Assembly: GCF_900104925.1 (NCBI RefSeq)
Contig: NZ_LT629735.1
Span: 714,291 to 778,290, forward strand
Direction of reading: 5' to 3'
From: Opitutus sp. GAS368
GTDB lineage: Bacteria; Verrucomicrobiota; Verrucomicrobiia; Opitutales; Opitutaceae
Length of the DNA: 64,000 nucleotides
The position numbers and the translations under genes were made by a program. A model generated the notes under the pieces. The model made no database searches, was not told the DNA's origin, and saw only the letters and a list, made by a program, of their open reading frames with translations. Each line of letters begins with the position of its first letter. Positions within the stretch are counted from its first letter, which is position 1. This document shows, one piece after another, positions 12,863 to 61,104 of the stretch.

Positions 12863-12946
12863 GCCGGGCGGCGACTCCGCTCACCGCCAAGGCGCGGATC
12901 CGACTTCGCCAAGGCTACGACGGACAAGACGGAGTCCGCGCCCTAC
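12863..12946. repeat. GTAGG-superfamily hairpin, subtype A (long form)
   Basis: Begins GCCGGGCGGCGACTCC and ends GGAGTCCGCGCCCTAC, with the internal segment TTCGCCAAGGCTACGACGGA. The same long form occurs inside the SNF2 gene at 58091-58174 and a part of it at 29127-29160. Ends pair imperfectly. Confidence 0.75.
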
Positions 12947-16522: not shown

Positions 16523-16535
16523 GAAGCAACAACGG

Positions 16536-16589
16536 TGGGGCGGGCACTCCGTTGCCCGCCGCGGCGCGGACGGAGTCCGCGCCCTGCCG
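16536..16589. repeat. GTAGG-superfamily hairpin, subtype A (short form)
   Basis: GTGGGGCGGGCACTCC near 16536 pairs with GGAGTCCGCGCCCTGCC near 16573, enclosing a GTTGCCCGCC-type inner stem. It sits between rluE and the oxidoreductase gene. The terminal T/A of GTAGG...CCTAC has decayed. Confidence 0.65.
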
Positions 16590-18043: not shown

Positions 18044-20184
18044 CAGTGCGCCAGCTTTTGCAATTCCTCGAGCTCGGACCGGATCGCGCTGTCGTCGGGC
18101 CGGGCCCCGGCGAGTTGACGGTAGCGATCGATCGCCTCGGGCAGCCGGCCCAGGTGGATCAGCACCCGGGCGAGATTGTGCCGCGCGTCGGGATAACCGG
18201 GATCGAGCTCCAGGGCCCGCTCGTAGGCCGCGATGGCCTCGGGCAGGCGGCCGAGTTCCGCGCGGACGTTGCCCAGGTTGTTGGCCACATCCGCATAGTC
18301 GGGTTTCAGCCGCAGGGCCTCCTCGTATTGCCCCAGGGCCGCGGGCAGCCGGCGGGCTTGGGCCAGGGCATTGCCCAGATTGTAGCGGGCCTCGGCATAA
18401 TTCGGGTCCAGCCGCACCGCCTCCTCGCCCTCCCGGAGGGCCTCGGCCCCGCGCCCTTGCTCCAACCGGACATTGGCCAGGTTGCTGTGCGCCTCGGCGA
18501 AACCGGGCTTGAGCCGCACGGCTTCCGCATAATGGACCGCGGCCTCCTCGAGGCGCCCGCCGGCGAGCAAGGCATTGCCCAGGTTGTTGTGCGCCTCGGC
18601 ATAGTTGGGCTGCAGCCGCAGGGCCTCCTCATACTGGTTGCTGGCCTCGGCCGGGCGGCCCAGCCGCGCCAAGGCCAGCCCGAGGTTGTAATGCGGTTCC
18701 GGCACGCCCGGCTGGAGCCGGACGGCTTCCTCATATTGCGCCTGCGCCTCGGCGAAGCGGTTGGCGGCAAAAAACGCCTTGCCCAGATTATTGTGGGCGC
18801 GGCCGTTCGCCGGCCGCTTGGCCACGGTGTCGGCCCACAACCCCGGCTCGCTGCCGTAGTCGGCGTTGCGCCGGACCGTGAGCCCGCCCCACCCCACCGC
18901 CAGCGCACCGCAGACCACCAGGCCGCGCCGCCCCAGCCAGGCATAAAGTCCCAGCACCGCCGGCCCCAGGATCGCCACCAGCGGAAGATACATCCGGTGC
19001 TCCGCCACGGTTTGGGTGGCCACCGGCACCACGCTCGAGCTCGGCGCCAGAATCAGGAAAAACCACGCGCCGGCAAAGCCCCACACCGGACGGCGCACCA
19101 GCGCCACTCCGGTGCCGGCCGCCAGCGCCACGAGCAACAGGGCCTGCAGCCAGACCTCCCCCAGCCCGCCGACCGTCGCCGTGCCATAGTCGAAGACCAG
19201 CGGATCCGGCCACACCACCAGCCACAGGTAGTGGATGATCGCCTGGCATTGGGTCAGCAGGTAGCGCCACGGGCCGACCTCCGCGCCAAAGCCCGCGGTG
19301 CCGCCGCGACCCGTCGTGCCGGCCACCAGCCAGGCCAGCAACAGCCACGTGGCCGCCAGTCCACTATAATAGCGCCACCGGCGGCGCCACGCCTCGCGAA
19401 AGCTCCCGGCCACGAACGTGCGATCATAGAGCAACACCATCAGCGGCGCCGACGCCATGACCTCCTTGCTCGCCATGCCCGCAAGACAGGCGACGATTGA
19501 GATACCGGTCCAAAGTCTGCTTTCAGGTTTCAGGTTTGCTTCGCCATCTCCGCGTCGGACGCTCCGTCCGGTCTCAGGTTTCTCTGCCATCCTGATGAAG
19601 GCGTAAAGCGTCAGCAGATAGCACAGGGCCATCAATGATTCCGCCCGTTGCACCACGTAGGTGACCGACTCCGTCTGCAGCGGATGCAACGTCCAGAGCA
19701 GCGCGACCGCCAGCGCGAGCCAGGTCGCGTCCCTTTGTAGGAGCCTGCTTGCAGGCGATTCCGGGGCGCCCGGTATCGCATTACGTCCTGAGTCGCCTGC
19801 AAGCAGGCTCCTACCCGGCAATCCCGCCAGCGTCCGCCGCACGATGCCAAACAGCGCCAGTCCCGCCAGCACATGGATGAGCAGATTGACCAGGTGGTAG
19901 CCGCGCACGGCTTCGCCGCCCAGCGACTGGTTGAGCGCCAGGCTGAGGTTGACCAGCGGCCGGCCGCTGACCGTCAGGCCCCCATCGAGCCCGGGCGCCA
20001 GCACCCCGCCGAGCGACCATCCCGGGCGGATCGATGGATTGTCCACGATGGCGGGCACGTCATCGAAGACAAACGGGCCCGCGAAGCTGTTGTGGTAGGC
20101 GGCCAGCGCCGCCAGCACCAGGCCGCTCGCGGCCAGCCAGATCGCCCGGCGGGCGGAGGCGGAGGACGGCGGCGGGACGTTCAC
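18043..20184 (-). CDS. multi-span membrane protein with C-terminal TPR repeats, containing two in-frame repeat insertions
   Basis: 713 residues from the GTG at 20184. The N-terminal 440 residues are a polytopic membrane domain (about 10 helices) opening with AYHNSFAGPFVFDDVPAIVDN, a motif of TMTC-like and bacterial O-glycosylation-type TPR proteins. Residues about 455-710 are seven or eight tandem 34-residue TPRs (A..NNLG.AL...GR..EA...YEEA.RL.P). A hairpin repeat (19737-19814) adds residues reading RSLLAGDSG...SPASRLLQ, and a TTTCAGGT-type repeat (19519-19583) adds AEKPETGRSVRRGDGEANLK. Both keep the frame and fall in loops. Function is uncertain; glycosyl transfer or envelope assembly is possible. 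Confidence 0.8.
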   Translation of the reverse strand: MNVPPPSSASARRAIWLAASGLVLAALAAYHNSFAGPFVFDDVPAIVDNPSIRPGWSLGGVLAPGLDGGLTVSGRPLVNLSLALNQSLGGEAVRGYHLVNLLIHVLAGLALFGIVRRTLAGLPGRSLLAGDSGRNAIPGAPESPASRLLQRDATWLALAVALLWTLHPLQTESVTYVVQRAESLMALCYLLTLYAFIRMAEKPETGRSVRRGDGEANLKPESRLWTGISIVACLAGMASKEVMASAPLMVLLYDRTFVAGSFREAWRRRWRYYSGLAATWLLLAWLVAGTTGRGGTAGFGAEVGPWRYLLTQCQAIIHYLWLVVWPDPLVFDYGTATVGGLGEVWLQALLLVALAAGTGVALVRRPVWGFAGAWFFLILAPSSSVVPVATQTVAEHRMYLPLVAILGPAVLGLYAWLGRRGLVVCGALAVGWGGLTVRRNADYGSEPGLWADTVAKRPANGRAHNNLGKAFFAANRFAEAQAQYEEAVRLQPGVPEPHYNLGLALARLGRPAEASNQYEEALRLQPNYAEAHNNLGNALLAGGRLEEAAVHYAEAVRLKPGFAEAHSNLANVRLEQGRGAEALREGEEAVRLDPNYAEARYNLGNALAQARRLPAALGQYEEALRLKPDYADVANNLGNVRAELGRLPEAIAAYERALELDPGYPDARHNLARVLIHLGRLPEAIDRYRQLAGARPDDSAIRSELEELQKLAH
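19519..19583. repeat. TTTCAGGT-type repeat inside the TPR gene
   Basis: CTTTCAGGTTTCAGGTTTGC at one end and CCGGTCTCAGGTTTCTC at the other. It is the same TTTCAGGTYTCAG unit found between genes at 33433, 36217 and 38251, here encoding a hydrophilic loop. Confidence 0.65.
19737..19814. repeat. GTAGG-superfamily hairpin, subtype F, inside the TPR gene
   Basis: A 78-base element with perfect 22-bp arms: GTAGGAGCCTGCTTGCAGGC begins the left arm (19737-19758) and the right arm is 19793-19814, ending CTCCTAC. Length is a multiple of three and no stop arises in the gene frame. Confidence 0.85.
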
Positions 20185-23809: not shown

Positions 23810-23875
23810 GTAGGGTCGTCGCTTGCGACGACCTCGCCCACGCCAAGCTAAGGTCGTCGCGAGCAACGACCCTAC
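23810..23875. repeat. GTAGG-superfamily hairpin, subtype D
   Basis: GTAGGGTCGTCGCTTGCGAC starts the left arm and the right arm ends GCAACGACCCTAC. An inner GTCGTCGC.GCGACGAC stem nests inside each arm. It lies directly behind the terminator. Confidence 0.8.
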
Positions 23876-34456: not shown

Positions 34457-34993
34457 ATGAAACCGGCCAAGCTGCCCGCCCCCCCGCCGACGATCCGCTT
34501 CAGTGCCAGGTTGGAGGAGCCCCTTCTCCCCCTGCCCAAGGCCGCGAGTGCGAAGCTGCCGCGAGGCCCGGTGGTGGTTGAGGCGACCATCAATGGCTTC
34601 CCCTTCCGGGCCGCGCTCGAGGGCAAAGGCGGTCACGGCCTCAAGGTGAACCCCATCATGCTCGCTGCGGCGGGCGCCGGGTTGGGCGACACGGTCACGG
34701 TGGAGATTACGCGGGTCGGGGAAGAAGCGGAGACCCGCGTGCCGACGGATCTGCGCGAGGCCCTGGCCGCCGCCCCGCGAGCCCGGGCGACGTGGGATGC
34801 GAACACGCCCAACGCCCGGCAAAATTGGATCCTCTGGCTCAGCTCGGGCAAACTCGAGGAAACGCGCCGGATCCGGATCAAGAAAGCCTGCTCCATGCTC
34901 GGCGCCGGCAAGAAACGGGTCTGTTGTTTCGGCGGCCTGACCTGGCTCAGGAAGGACCACAAAACCGCCGGCGAAAACTGGCTGCCGCTGTAG
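34457..34993 (+). CDS. YdeI/OmpD-associated family protein with DUF1905 domain
   Basis: 178 residues. Residues 10-95 are DUF1905 (RFSARLEEPLLPLPKAASAK, VEATINGFPFRAALEGKGGH, and ITRVGEE). Residues 100-145 match the YdeI/OmdA helical part (LREALAAAPRARATWDANTP, ARQNWILWLSSGKLEETR). YdeI-type proteins are linked to polymyxin or bacteriocin tolerance in enterobacteria, but the role here is unknown. The last residues WLPL run directly into a GTAGG repeat whose TAG is the stop codon. Confidence 0.8.
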   Translation: MKPAKLPAPPPTIRFSARLEEPLLPLPKAASAKLPRGPVVVEATINGFPFRAALEGKGGHGLKVNPIMLAAAGAGLGDTVTVEITRVGEEAETRVPTDLREALAAAPRARATWDANTPNARQNWILWLSSGKLEETRRIRIKKACSMLGAGKKRVCCFGGLTWLRKDHKTAGENWLPL

Positions 34994-35068
34994 GGCGGGA
35001 TCACCGCATCCCGCCGCGAACATGATCGCATCCACGAATGAAGGCGGGATGCGGTGATCCCGCCCTAC
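34990..35068. repeat. GTAGG-superfamily hairpin, subtype B
   Basis: GTAGGGCGGGATCACCGCAT starts the left arm; the right arm ends GTGATCCCGCCCTAC. Arms are 25 bp or more and near perfect, and each arm also contains its own small GCGGGAT/ATCCCGC hairpin. Overlaps the YdeI-like stop codon. Confidence 0.85.
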
Positions 35069-38150: not shown

Positions 38151-38216
38151 GTAGGAGGGGCTTTACGCCCCGATTTCATGGCACCTCGATCAATCGGGGC
38201 GTAAAGCCCCTCCTAC
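38151..38216. repeat. GTAGG-superfamily hairpin, subtype C
   Basis: Perfect 25-bp arms, 38151-38175 (GTAGGAGGGGCTTTACGCCC...) and 38192-38216 (ending CCCCTCCTAC), around a 16-base loop. A second copy is at 58698-58764. Confidence 0.88.
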
Positions 38217-56140: not shown

Positions 56141-58693
56141 ATGCTCCGTCTCCTGCTGCCACCCAACCTCGCCACCGCCGCTCCGCGCGACGCCATCGCC
56201 GTGCGCGTGGAGCTGGACCTGTCGGCCGCTTGGCCGGGCGACCGGCCCGGACAGACCCCGGCCGGCCCGCCGGCCGGAACGGTGCTGCCTGAAAACCTCG
56301 CCCCCGCCCTCGCCATCCTGCAGCGCCTCGGCGTGTCCGCGCAGCCGGTGTCGCTGATCCAGCTCAAGCGCGCCCAGCTGCGCGAGCTCGTCCACGCCCT
56401 CACCGGCGAGCGCGTCTTCTTCCGCGCCGACCGGCCCACCCTGCCGCTGGCCTGGAACGGCCTCGCGCTGCCCGGCGTGAGCGAGCACTTGACCGAACCG
56501 GTCGCGCCCCCGCCGGCCCCGGTGGCCAAGCCGAAGCCGAAGAAGAAACCCGAGCCCGAGGACGACGATCTCACGCCGCTCACCGTGGACGGCTCGGAGC
56601 ATTTCCTCGCCATCACCCTGCCCTCGCGCGAGTCGATGGTCTACGATGCCGCCCTCGAGTTCCTCCGCACCCACCGCTTCGTCCTCGACCCGCTCACCCG
56701 CAAGTGGTGGCTGCGCGACCGCCACAAGGTTCTCAACCTCCTCGCCACGCACGGCGCGCTGCTGCGCGACAACCTGCACGCCGAATTCACCGCCAATTTC
56801 GAAAAAAACACGGCGCATCTCAAGGCCGCCGAGATCGCCGCGCAGATCGGCGAGGAGGCCGACGGCTACGACGTCACGCTCGGCCTCAAGGCCGGCAGCG
56901 CCCCCGATGCGCAAATCCGTTCGGCCGTCGCGACCGGCCGCGGCTATATCGAGGCCGACGGCGCCATCTACCTGATCGACGCCGCCAAGCTCACCGGGTT
57001 GGAGGCCGCGCAGCGCGCGCTCGCCGGCGAGGTGTCCGCCGCCAGTGCCCAGGGCCGGCACCGCATCGCCAAGGCCCGCGCCGCCGAGGTGACCGACCTG
57101 CTGGAGAGCATCGCGCCGCATTTCTCGGCGCCCGAAACCTGGCACCGGCGCAGCGCCGCGTTGAAGAATCTTTCCGTGCTGCCGCCCGCCCCGGTGCCGG
57201 CCAGCTTCACCGCCGTGCTGCGTCCCTACCAGCAGCTCGGCGTCGCGTGGCTCTGGCACCTGCACGGCCAGGAACTCGGCGGCATCCTCGCCGACGAGAT
57301 GGGCCTCGGCAAAACGCCGCAGGCCCTCGCGCTCCTCGCCGCCGTGGTAGGGCGGCGAGTCCCTTCGCCGCCGAAGCGCGGAGCGGAGTCCGCGCCCTAC
57401 CCCCCGCACCTCGTCGTCGTGCCGGCCTCGCTCGTGGAGAACTGGCGGCGCGAGGCCGCGCGCTTCGCGCCGGCGCTGCGCGTCTTCGTCCATCACGGCG
57501 GCGCCCGGCTGGCGGCCGGAGAGTTCGCCGGTTACGACCTCGTGCTCACCTCCTACGGCACGCTGGCGCGCGACACGGAGCTCTTCGCGGGCGTGCCCTT
57601 CGACGTCATTCTCGCCGACGAGGCGCAGCACCTGAAGAACCGCCGCACCCAGGCCGCGCAGGCGCTGCGCGTGCTGCACGGCCGCAGCCGCTTCCTGCTT
57701 ACCGGCACGCCGCTGGAGAACTCGCTCGACGACCTGCGTTCGCTCTTCGAGTTCCTGATGCCCGGCTTCCTGCCCAAACTCCCGCCCGGCATGAAGCGCG
57801 AGGAGCGCGCCTTCCACGACGAGCGGCTGCGCGTCCAGACCGCGCCCTACATCCTCCGCCGCACCAAGGCCATCGTCGCCCCCGAGCTGCCGCCCAAGAT
57901 CGAGCAGGTCATCTGGTGCGAGCCGACCGCCGCCCAGGCCGCCCTCTACCAGCACATGCAGGAGGCCACCGAGCGCGAACTCTTCGACCTCGCCGCCCAG
58001 GGTGCCTCGGAGGGCCGGCTCCATCTCGCCACGCTCACCCAGCTGCTGCGCCTGCGCCAGATCTGCTGCGACCCGCGGCTGGTGGAACAGGTCGGGCGGG
58101 GAGTCCCTGCCCCGCCGAGGCGCGGATCCGACTTCGCCAAGGCTACGACGGACAAGACGGAGTCCGCGCCCTACCGGAATTCCGCCAAGCTCGAGGCCTT
58201 CCGGGAATTGCTGGCCGAGTCCGTCGACGAGGGCCACCGCATGCTCGTCTTCTCGCAGTTCACCTCGCTGCTGGCGCTGCTGCGCGAGGAACTCGAGGCC
58301 GAGGGCGTCGCCTATTGCTACCTCGACGGCTCGATGACCACCCGGGCCCGCCAGACCGCGGTGGACAAGTTCCAGGACGACGAGACCGTCCCGGTCTTCC
58401 TCATCTCGCTCAAGGCCGGCGGCACCGGCCTCAACCTCACCGGGGCGGACACCGTCGTGCACTACGATCCGTGGTGGAATCCCGCCGTCGAGGCGCAGGC
58501 CACCGACCGCACGCACCGCATCGGCCAGACCAAGGTCGTCACCAGCTACCGGCTCATTTGCGCCGGCACGGTCGAGGAGAAGGTCATGGCGCTGCAGGAC
58601 GGGAAGCGCGCGCTGCTGGCCGGCGTGTTCGACGCCAGCGACGCGGCCGCCGCGAAGCTCAGCCTCGCCGACCTCCGCGCCCTGCTGAAATAA
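56141..58693 (+). CDS. SNF2/Rad54-type DNA-dependent ATPase with two in-frame repeat insertions
   Basis: 850 residues from the ATG at 56141. Helicase motifs: I, DEMGLGKT (K391); II, DEAQ (D493); III, LLTGTPLENSLDDLRSLFEF; IV-VI, LISLKAGGTGLNLTGADTVV and EAQATDRTHRIGQTK. SNF2 ATPases translocate on duplex DNA to remodel protein-DNA complexes; bacterial ones include HepA/RapA. Two hairpin repeats of the GTAGG superfamily lie in frame: 57347-57400 (residues 403-420, VGRRVPSPPKRG...ESAPY) between motifs I and Ia, and 58091-58174 (residues 651-678, VGRGVPAPPRRG...ESAPY) between the two lobes. Both encode a Pro-rich loop. Confidence 0.88.
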   Translation: MLRLLLPPNLATAAPRDAIAVRVELDLSAAWPGDRPGQTPAGPPAGTVLPENLAPALAILQRLGVSAQPVSLIQLKRAQLRELVHALTGERVFFRADRPTLPLAWNGLALPGVSEHLTEPVAPPPAPVAKPKPKKKPEPEDDDLTPLTVDGSEHFLAITLPSRESMVYDAALEFLRTHRFVLDPLTRKWWLRDRHKVLNLLATHGALLRDNLHAEFTANFEKNTAHLKAAEIAAQIGEEADGYDVTLGLKAGSAPDAQIRSAVATGRGYIEADGAIYLIDAAKLTGLEAAQRALAGEVSAASAQGRHRIAKARAAEVTDLLESIAPHFSAPETWHRRSAALKNLSVLPPAPVPASFTAVLRPYQQLGVAWLWHLHGQELGGILADEMGLGKTPQALALLAAVVGRRVPSPPKRGAESAPYPPHLVVVPASLVENWRREAARFAPALRVFVHHGGARLAAGEFAGYDLVLTSYGTLARDTELFAGVPFDVILADEAQHLKNRRTQAAQALRVLHGRSRFLLTGTPLENSLDDLRSLFEFLMPGFLPKLPPGMKREERAFHDERLRVQTAPYILRRTKAIVAPELPPKIEQVIWCEPTAAQAALYQHMQEATERELFDLAAQGASEGRLHLATLTQLLRLRQICCDPRLVEQVGRGVPAPPRRGSDFAKATTDKTESAPYRNSAKLEAFRELLAESVDEGHRMLVFSQFTSLLALLREELEAEGVAYCYLDGSMTTRARQTAVDKFQDDETVPVFLISLKAGGTGLNLTGADTVVHYDPWWNPAVEAQATDRTHRIGQTKVVTSYRLICAGTVEEKVMALQDGKRALLAGVFDASDAAAAKLSLADLRALLK
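57347..57400. repeat. GTAGG-superfamily subtype A, short form, inside the SNF2 gene
   Basis: 54 bases, GTAGGGCGGCGAGTCCCTTC to GGAGTCCGCGCCCTAC. Length is a multiple of three and no stop appears in the gene frame. Confidence 0.85.
58091..58174. repeat. GTAGG-superfamily subtype A, long form, inside the SNF2 gene
   Basis: 84 bases, GTCGGGCGGGGAGTCCCTGC to GGAGTCCGCGCCCTAC. It contains the same TTCGCCAAGGCTACGACGGA core as 12863-12946. The frame is kept. Confidence 0.85.
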
Positions 58694-58697
58694 AGCT

Positions 58698-58764
58698 GGA
58701 GGAGGGGCTTTATGCCCCGATGGCCACGGGACCGCCATCCATCGGGGCATAAAGCCCCTCCTAC
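58698..58764. repeat. GTAGG-superfamily hairpin, subtype C
   Basis: Left arm GGAGGAGGGGCTTTATGCCC (from 58698), right arm GGGCATAAAGCCCCTCCTAC ending 58764. Same family as 38151-38216 with TTTATGCCCC for TTTACGCCCC. Directly after the SNF2 gene. Confidence 0.85.
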
Positions 58765-61035: not shown

Positions 61036-61104
61036 GTAGGGCGGGATCACCGCATCCCGCCTCCGGTGGAGCGCAGAAGGCGGGATGCGGTGATCCCGCC
61101 CTAC
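61036..61104. repeat. GTAGG-superfamily hairpin, subtype B
   Basis: GTAGGGCGGGATCACCGCAT starts and GGTGATCCCGCCCTAC ends it; arms are the same as at 34990-35068, the loop differs (CTCCGGTGGAGCGCAGA). Confidence 0.88.

Follow-up and report, generated by a model that had tools for sequence, protein, structure and literature searches.

Whether selfish palindromes can build protein linkers, and how the reading frame stays intact when they do, is a question raised by work on Rickettsia. A natural series bearing on it is provided by an SNF2-family ATPase gene in a 64,000-nucleotide stretch of Opitutus sp. GAS368 (contig NZ_LT629735.1 of assembly GCF_900104925.1, positions 714,291 to 778,290; the whole stretch is referred to as the window) and by its orthologues. 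The gene (56141–58693, + strand) carries two hairpin repeats in frame, which an earlier note had described as a mobile, protein-coding linker new to this lineage. The kind of element and its presence in a related bacterium are already known; what deserves attention is that, among close relatives, particular linkers of several genes have been occupied repeatedly by unrelated families of repetitive extragenic palindromic (REP) elements, in a register that is fixed within the clade. Rickettsia palindromic elements (RPE) reportedly lie in frame inside apparently functional proteins, as Ogata et al. in 2002 and Claverie and Ogata in 2003 are said to have described. The window elements are likewise palindromic repeats in frame in proteins, in a different lineage.

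The SNF2 ATPase and its two repeats

The gene encodes 850 residues in an open reading frame (ORF) that is open throughout, from a start codon at 56141 that is conserved among orthologues (MLRLLLPPN) to a stop at 58693. Pfam places SNF2-rel_dom at residues 363–647 (E 2.9e-60) and Helicase_C at residues 683–795 (E 9.9e-26), both as full-length or near-full-length matches, and helicase motif I (residues 385–392) is invariant or almost so across 41 aligned rows. Among solved structures, the closest in sequence is the SNF2/Rad54 helicase 1z63. With both domains present and its motifs intact, the protein is an SNF2 ATPase, and the two repeats do lie in one open frame with the helicase domains undisturbed, as had been proposed. 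Copy 1 (57347–57400, +; 54 nt) encodes residues 403–420 (VGRRVPSPPKRGAESAPY) in the loop after motif I (site S1). Copy 2 (58091–58174, +; 84 nt) encodes residues 651–678 between the two helicase lobes (site S2). These positions and lengths agree with those given earlier. Copy 2 is longer by 30 nt owing to a second short repeat between its hairpins, a nested inner repeat containing TTCGCCAAGGCTACG at 58127–58157 (+; approximate limits, placed by visual comparison with copy 1).

Both copies belong to one family, here called family A. In the genome, which is a single contig of 4,150,783 bases, the 3′ core GAGTCCGCGCCCTAC has 36 matches with at most one mismatch (26 exact) and the reversed-pattern control has one; the inner-repeat core TTCGCCAAGGCTACG has 32 (12 exact). 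RNA-folding z scores are −5.0 for copy 1 and −3.4 for copy 2, and none of 200 shuffles is as stable as either. Copy number and folding thus bear out the original description as an interspersed hairpin repeat. Copy 2 folds into two hairpins whose outer ends read GTCG and CTAC, an arrangement matching two GTAG REPs placed head to head, and the best fold of copy 1 is one long bulged hairpin. In a strict ungapped inverted-repeat test the two copies do not stand out (8/60 and 9/60 shuffles reach them), since the stems contain bulges or fall into two parts. This score was therefore rejected as the sole test, and folding and copy number were used too.

A search for the end motifs returned 22 complete family-A copies, a selection that itself imposes part of the end consensus: all 22 open with GTA, GTG or GTC ahead of GGGCGG and close with a CCTAC-type end in its TAC, TGC or CAC form. 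A G precedes GTRGGGCGG (or GTCGGGCGG) and a C follows the TAC-type end, and no target-site consensus for insertion was found in the 22 copies beyond these flanking bases. The length is divisible by three in 15 of the 22 (hand count), so that this property, put forward earlier as evidence for a coding role, is ordinary and was rejected as proof of coding selection. Family A agrees in form and distribution with the GTAG-tagged REP superfamily, whose members are short hairpins (5–13 bp stem, short loop, often head-to-head dimers) with a GTAG or GYRG-type motif outermost and are dispersed in tens of copies, mostly outside genes. REPINs are paired REPs moved by REP-associated tyrosine transposases (RAYTs) and are described mainly as extragenic. 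Family A resembles them as a short, dispersed, head-to-head REP pair in a genome with RAYT-type genes; in contrast to that description, some of its copies lie inside coding sequence, and no RAYT for it was found in nine loci (see below).

In the window, the 3′ core has five matches with at most two mismatches, against 0.24 expected, one of which (57836) was judged to be ordinary helicase coding sequence and not an element. The composite of family A and inner repeat, a candidate for a doublet that is mobile as a unit in the manner of a REPIN, occurs twice in the window: 12863–12946 (+) matches copy 2 at 76 of 84 positions and has the same inner insert; the two agree fully over the 57 nt on the right but diverge in the left arm. 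A 53 nt copy at 16535–16587 (+) was recognized by its 3′ core. Both of these further copies, which the earlier note had placed between genes at 12863 and 16536, are real; neither ORF overlapping 16535–16587 has a Pfam match, and that copy is possibly intergenic.

Turnover of repeat families at fixed linkers

Orthologues were collected from 110 loci, giving 92 distinct proteins (one with an in-frame stop), the named sources of which include Lacunisphaera, Candidatus Didemnitutus, Opitutus, Oleiharenicola and Ereboglobus. Site S1 was measured from motif I to the next strand and S2 between the helicase lobes, in both cases with the fixed flanks included. By our own split on titles and similarity, 47 rows are Opitutaceae-like and 45 are not (L029, of the same family, fell among the latter). 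S1 spans 15–52 residues in the Opitutaceae-like rows versus 17–37 (median 19) in the others, and S2 spans 10–88 versus 12–13. None of the 92 proteins carries the window's segments as ordinary conserved sequence, and the extra residues across orthologues are not one conserved segment; the comparison supports the window's segments being insertions relative to orthologues, and the claim withstood the orthologue test that the earlier note had set for its refutation.

The occupants of the two loops, assigned to families by peptide pattern, are diverse. Repeat families occupy S1 in 12 rows under seven labels: A in the window, B in L072, L074, L101 and L014, C in L073, D in L078, E in L081, L087 and L093, F in L090 and G2 in L082. 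At S2, 11 rows are occupied, again under seven labels: A in the window, E in L072 and L073, F in L086 and L101, G2 in L078, L083 and L087 (the last also with D), H in L082 and L093, and L in L023. The orthologues L075, L076 and L079 have no repeat at the loop site. Inverted repeats that none of 60 shuffles matches were found in six of 24 S1 inserts and nine of 23 S2 inserts of sufficient length for the test; family-B inserts did not pass this ungapped test. Searches of 38 genomes gave matches to family A in 11, to E in 13 and to F in 15, with one match in total to the reversed controls. These matches come chiefly from the genus; F also reaches a high copy number in G023 and G024.

Turnover is evident between the closest relatives. 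In a quick tree built without the loop columns, the window protein (L003) groups with L072 (support of 93 in the Shimodaira–Hasegawa-like approximate likelihood-ratio test); L072 is the closest orthologue found and is 94.2% identical outside the loops. The two proteins nevertheless differ in their occupants, with A versus B at S1 and A versus E at S2. The repair protein Mfd of the same two genomes (G000 and G004) also differs by eye at both of its linkers (G2-like versus A at M1, A versus E at M2). At S2 of L072 and L073, the F end GGAYAACCCGCCCTACC comes after a family-E element, and S1 of L081 keeps a similar decayed tail (by eye). Such a remnant of F beyond E is the trace expected from insertion into, or replacement of, a resident REP. 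This turnover of families at fixed loops looks new.

The register is constant as well as the site. GTRGG-type starts fall on the first base of a codon (register 0) in eight of eight S1 rows and nine of nine S2 rows, and on the second base (register 1) in eight of eight cases at the Mfd linkers. Within the wider clade of the window, these elements thus keep one register per site. This agreement is informative for families E and A because several registers are open in them (three in E, two or three in A). If registers were chosen at random among the open ones, agreement would arise by chance about once in 18 at S1 and about once in 18 at S2, as estimated by hand.

As a control we took an SNF2 paralogue with 43% identity across the shared part, sampled from largely the same relatives. 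The same scan found long inverted repeats in none of 30 paralogue genes versus 11 of 31 genes of the window's type (SNF2-A; 14 repeats, the window's gene not being among the 11) and in one of 31 codon-shuffled SNF2-A genes. Two of the 14 repeats (L027 and L156) lie outside the loops and may be chance occurrences, given the one in 31 shuffled genes. The paralogue loops are short and of near-constant length (readable in 29 of 30 genes at S1 and 22 of 30 at S2). In the AlphaFold model of the window protein, the mean predicted local distance difference test score (pLDDT) is 82.9 overall and falls below 50 at residues 30–47 (the site of a third repeat described below), 123–141 (a linker with palindromes in L012 and L014), 654–674 (S2) and 844–850. 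S1 has block means of 80 and 64 and no helix or strand at residues 405–422. Predicted order is thus low in the loops, most strongly for S2 and the N-terminal site. One member of the genus, G018 (99% complete), showed no SNF2-A orthologue, its best match lying in a 1222-residue paralogue frame.

Other genes host the same kind of insert; those considered here are chosen genes, not all genes. Mfd (L230, G000:C1:4132703-4136191; orthologues L231–L259) contains REP-encoded segments in two linkers near residues 270 and 418, with several families per linker across species. Long inverted repeats occur in ten of 30 Mfd genes; in L239 and L253 they fall outside the two linkers. For UvrA, 30 loci were taken (L260–L289), of which 23 could be aligned, the remainder giving too short a stretch for use. 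A linker near residue 527 of the query contains palindromes in four of the 23 (L260, L262, L272 and L274), and six have a palindrome anywhere; the linker holds different palindromic inserts in G018, G004, G023 and G024.

Pfam searches covered eight of the 36 family-A matches. Five of the eight are flanked on either side by domains of the gene that contains them, the hosts being SNF2 (two copies), Mfd, an OGG-like glycosylase and a PUA/SAM methyltransferase. The ORFs over 730863, 3761978 and 393588, and those over the family-E copies L195 and L227, gave no Pfam match, and L192 gave matches in both directions. Among family-E copies, the named hosts are UvrA, Mfd, a tRNA (uracil-5-)-methyltransferase-like protein, glycosyltransferases (that of L208 scoring below the threshold) and a DUF2238 protein. 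In a family-E sample of 42 elements in 39 of 40 loci, hand-picked among the matches listed and not random, seven were scored as genic versus 54.5% of random positions in the same loci (threshold 0.1, a weak measure). The elements look under-represented in genes, in the sense of a relative depletion only.

Part of this picture has a precedent. Di Nocera, De Gregorio and Rocco (2013; PMC3733652) described GTAG REPs in 24 families, with dimers, RAYTs and intragenic copies. The related bacterium Opitutus terrae is highest in intragenic REPs among the GTAG carriers. In-frame GTAG REPs are already reported there, mostly in O. terrae, so the novelty claimed for this lineage does not stand. As in our genes, the inserts are in frame, sometimes two per gene and often in DNA synthesis or repair genes; the hosts given include two double-hit uvrA genes, DNA ligase and RNA helicases, with the suggestion that inserts lie in linkers or loops. 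More than half of the intragenic inserts are dimers or groups coding for 20–30 residues, and the authors speculate on the usefulness of inserts for repair enzymes. Intragenic R. conorii repeats of the CGTC type are equated there with RPE-4 and RPE-6, in contrast to the GTAG tag of the window elements (tags compared by description). The recB genes of two Xanthomonas species carry different REPs at about the same site, and genes of the same category otherwise differ in their sites. Here, by contrast, the same SNF2, Mfd and UvrA linkers are re-occupied by several families, with nesting and a fixed register within the clade. In the literature searched, no account of family exchange at fixed linkers was found beyond the recB remark; the supplementary list of that paper, which lay outside the search, may name an O. 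terrae SNF2 gene.

Explanations for the shared sites

We consider it probable, though well short of assured, that RAYT-type REPs were captured neutrally in tolerant loops and that REP-into-REP replacement followed. The elements would be non-autonomous GTAG-tagged repeats of two head-to-head hairpins, with GTAG and CTAC outermost as in a REP dimer or REPIN, presumably moved by RAYT-type transposases. Each loop is likely to have received an older GTAG REP in an ancestral member of the Opitutaceae, frame-breaking copies being lost. The loop would then have become a safe site where the resident is replaced, or nested in, by later arrivals from other REP families, and the frame would be kept because the new element takes the place and register of the old one. 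In copy 2 of the window, a further short repeat would have inserted between the two hairpins. Once translated, the peptide is in all likelihood a neutral spacer. RAYT mobilization, in-place replacement as the mechanism and the neutrality of the peptide are all points that we infer. A bolder form, in which the disordered linkers of SNF2, Mfd and UvrA in the Opitutaceae are permanent docking sites for REPs and same-register replacement or nesting amounts to a frame-preserving cassette exchange, is put forward tentatively, as something rather less than an even prospect. If it is true, a single linker hosts a succession of unrelated translated repeats and the protein remains intact throughout. The finding as a whole may also explain why odd peptides (VGR...PPY, VGASLLA...REQARSH and TPAGQQAGTV) recur in unrelated proteins of these bacteria.

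Capture by independent insertion only, in which REPs land at random, selection keeps the in-frame ones in tolerant loops and nothing is replaced in place, is a less likely account but one to be taken seriously. It fits the low predicted order of the loops, the lack of inserts in the short-looped paralogue and the apparent depletion of elements in genes (seven of 42 family-E elements versus 54.5% of random positions). It is harder to reconcile with the single register kept at each site by families in which two or three are open, with the family-F end remnants outside a nested E element and with two sister species that differ at all four linkers compared. The S2 palindrome of L023, from outside the genus, speaks for it: this insert (GTGGCATGGG...) begins at the third base of a codon, so that at least that insertion is independent, and register uniformity was rejected as a rule for all relatives.

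That the inserts are useful, selected for altering the ATPase through lobe reach or partner binding, appears improbable. The earlier note had the repeat acting as a linker, a view that finds no support: most family-A copies have no good coding score on both sides (a weak measure of low sensitivity), and the exchange of families and peptides within the same loops speaks against selection for the family-A peptide. Several hosts are indeed nucleic-acid enzymes (SNF2, Mfd, UvrA, the OGG-like glycosylase and RNA methyltransferase-like proteins), a tendency also reported in PMC3733652, but glycosyltransferases and a DUF2238 protein are hosts too. At a single site, close relatives differ freely in the family, length and sequence of the peptide, and L075, L076 and L079 manage without a repeat there. 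Retention of the hairpin for an effect on DNA or mRNA (folding, pausing, or gyrase or transposase binding), with translation incidental, is very improbable. The stable folds of both copies would suit it, as would the S1 insert of L072 compared with L101, in which one change falls on each side of a possible stem (by eye, one pair). However, the frame is also kept where no outstanding inverted repeat is present (60/60 shuffles reach the S1 insert of L082 and 20/60 the S2 insert of L083), and the two window copies themselves form no strong palindrome when gaps are disallowed. We give hardly any credence to exchange of whole gene segments between species by homologous recombination in place of REP activity: the well-conserved flanks make it feasible, but no donor was seen, family A being found at S1 or S2 only in the window among the 92 proteins (by peptide pattern). 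The 57 nt that the gene's composite shares exactly with the copy at 12863 in the same genome point instead to copying or exchange within the genome.

Several observations weigh against neutral capture followed by replacement. At both sites the protein has gained less length than the element itself accounts for (30 versus about 19 residues at S1 and 36 versus 12–13 at S2, flanks included), so the insertions are not clean, and no target duplication was seen. Many long loops in the wider family (e.g. L022, L102 and G034) are non-palindromic by the tests or by eye, and loops therefore also grow in other ways. Genome-wide copy numbers were counted for four of the families, A, B, E and F. The register argument is post hoc and small, and families C, F and H, with one open register each, add nothing to it; site sharing could partly stem from independent insertions filtered by selection. 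S1 is disordered only weakly in the AlphaFold model, and the neutrality of the peptide is assumed. Finally, of the nine Y1_Tnp matches in the genome (L063–L071), several lie near GTAGG/CCTAC repeats of more than one other family (by eye), but the family-A end CGCGCCCTAC was not found beside any of them within the nine loci read, and no RAYT dedicated to family A was found there. Because the same loops hold different elements in closely related bacteria, neutrality, replacement and a possible effect on the enzyme lend themselves to direct tests.

Further repeats in the gene and window

A third repeat, of family B (...GQTPAGPPAGTV...), lies in frame near the N-terminus of the SNF2 protein at about 56242–56286 (+; bounds approximate), corresponding to residues ∼34–49. 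The exact pattern match is at 56258–56284 (G000:C1:770548-770574). The strict family-B pattern has 29 matches in the 29 genomes searched, seven of which lie in the window's SNF2 gene or its orthologues (one of four in G000, one of one in G003, one of three in G004, two of three in G014 and two of six in G017). A fourth site is marked by long palindromes in the N-terminal linker of SNF2 (window residues ∼119–141), at coding-sequence positions 332–409 in L012 and 419–507 in L014. Among the Y1_Tnp genes, L063 and L064 have identical scores and 152-residue frames and resemble an IS200-type pair.

A family-D palindrome (58700–58764, no strand assigned) begins six bases after the SNF2 stop codon; it is a near-perfect hairpin with a folding z score of −8.7 and could act as a terminator. 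The same family is also found in frame at S1 of L078 (by eye). Five further GTAGG...CCTAC palindromes are present in the window, at 19737–19814, 23810–23875, 34990–35068, 38151–38216 and 61036–61104; by eye they fall into four families, family D included.

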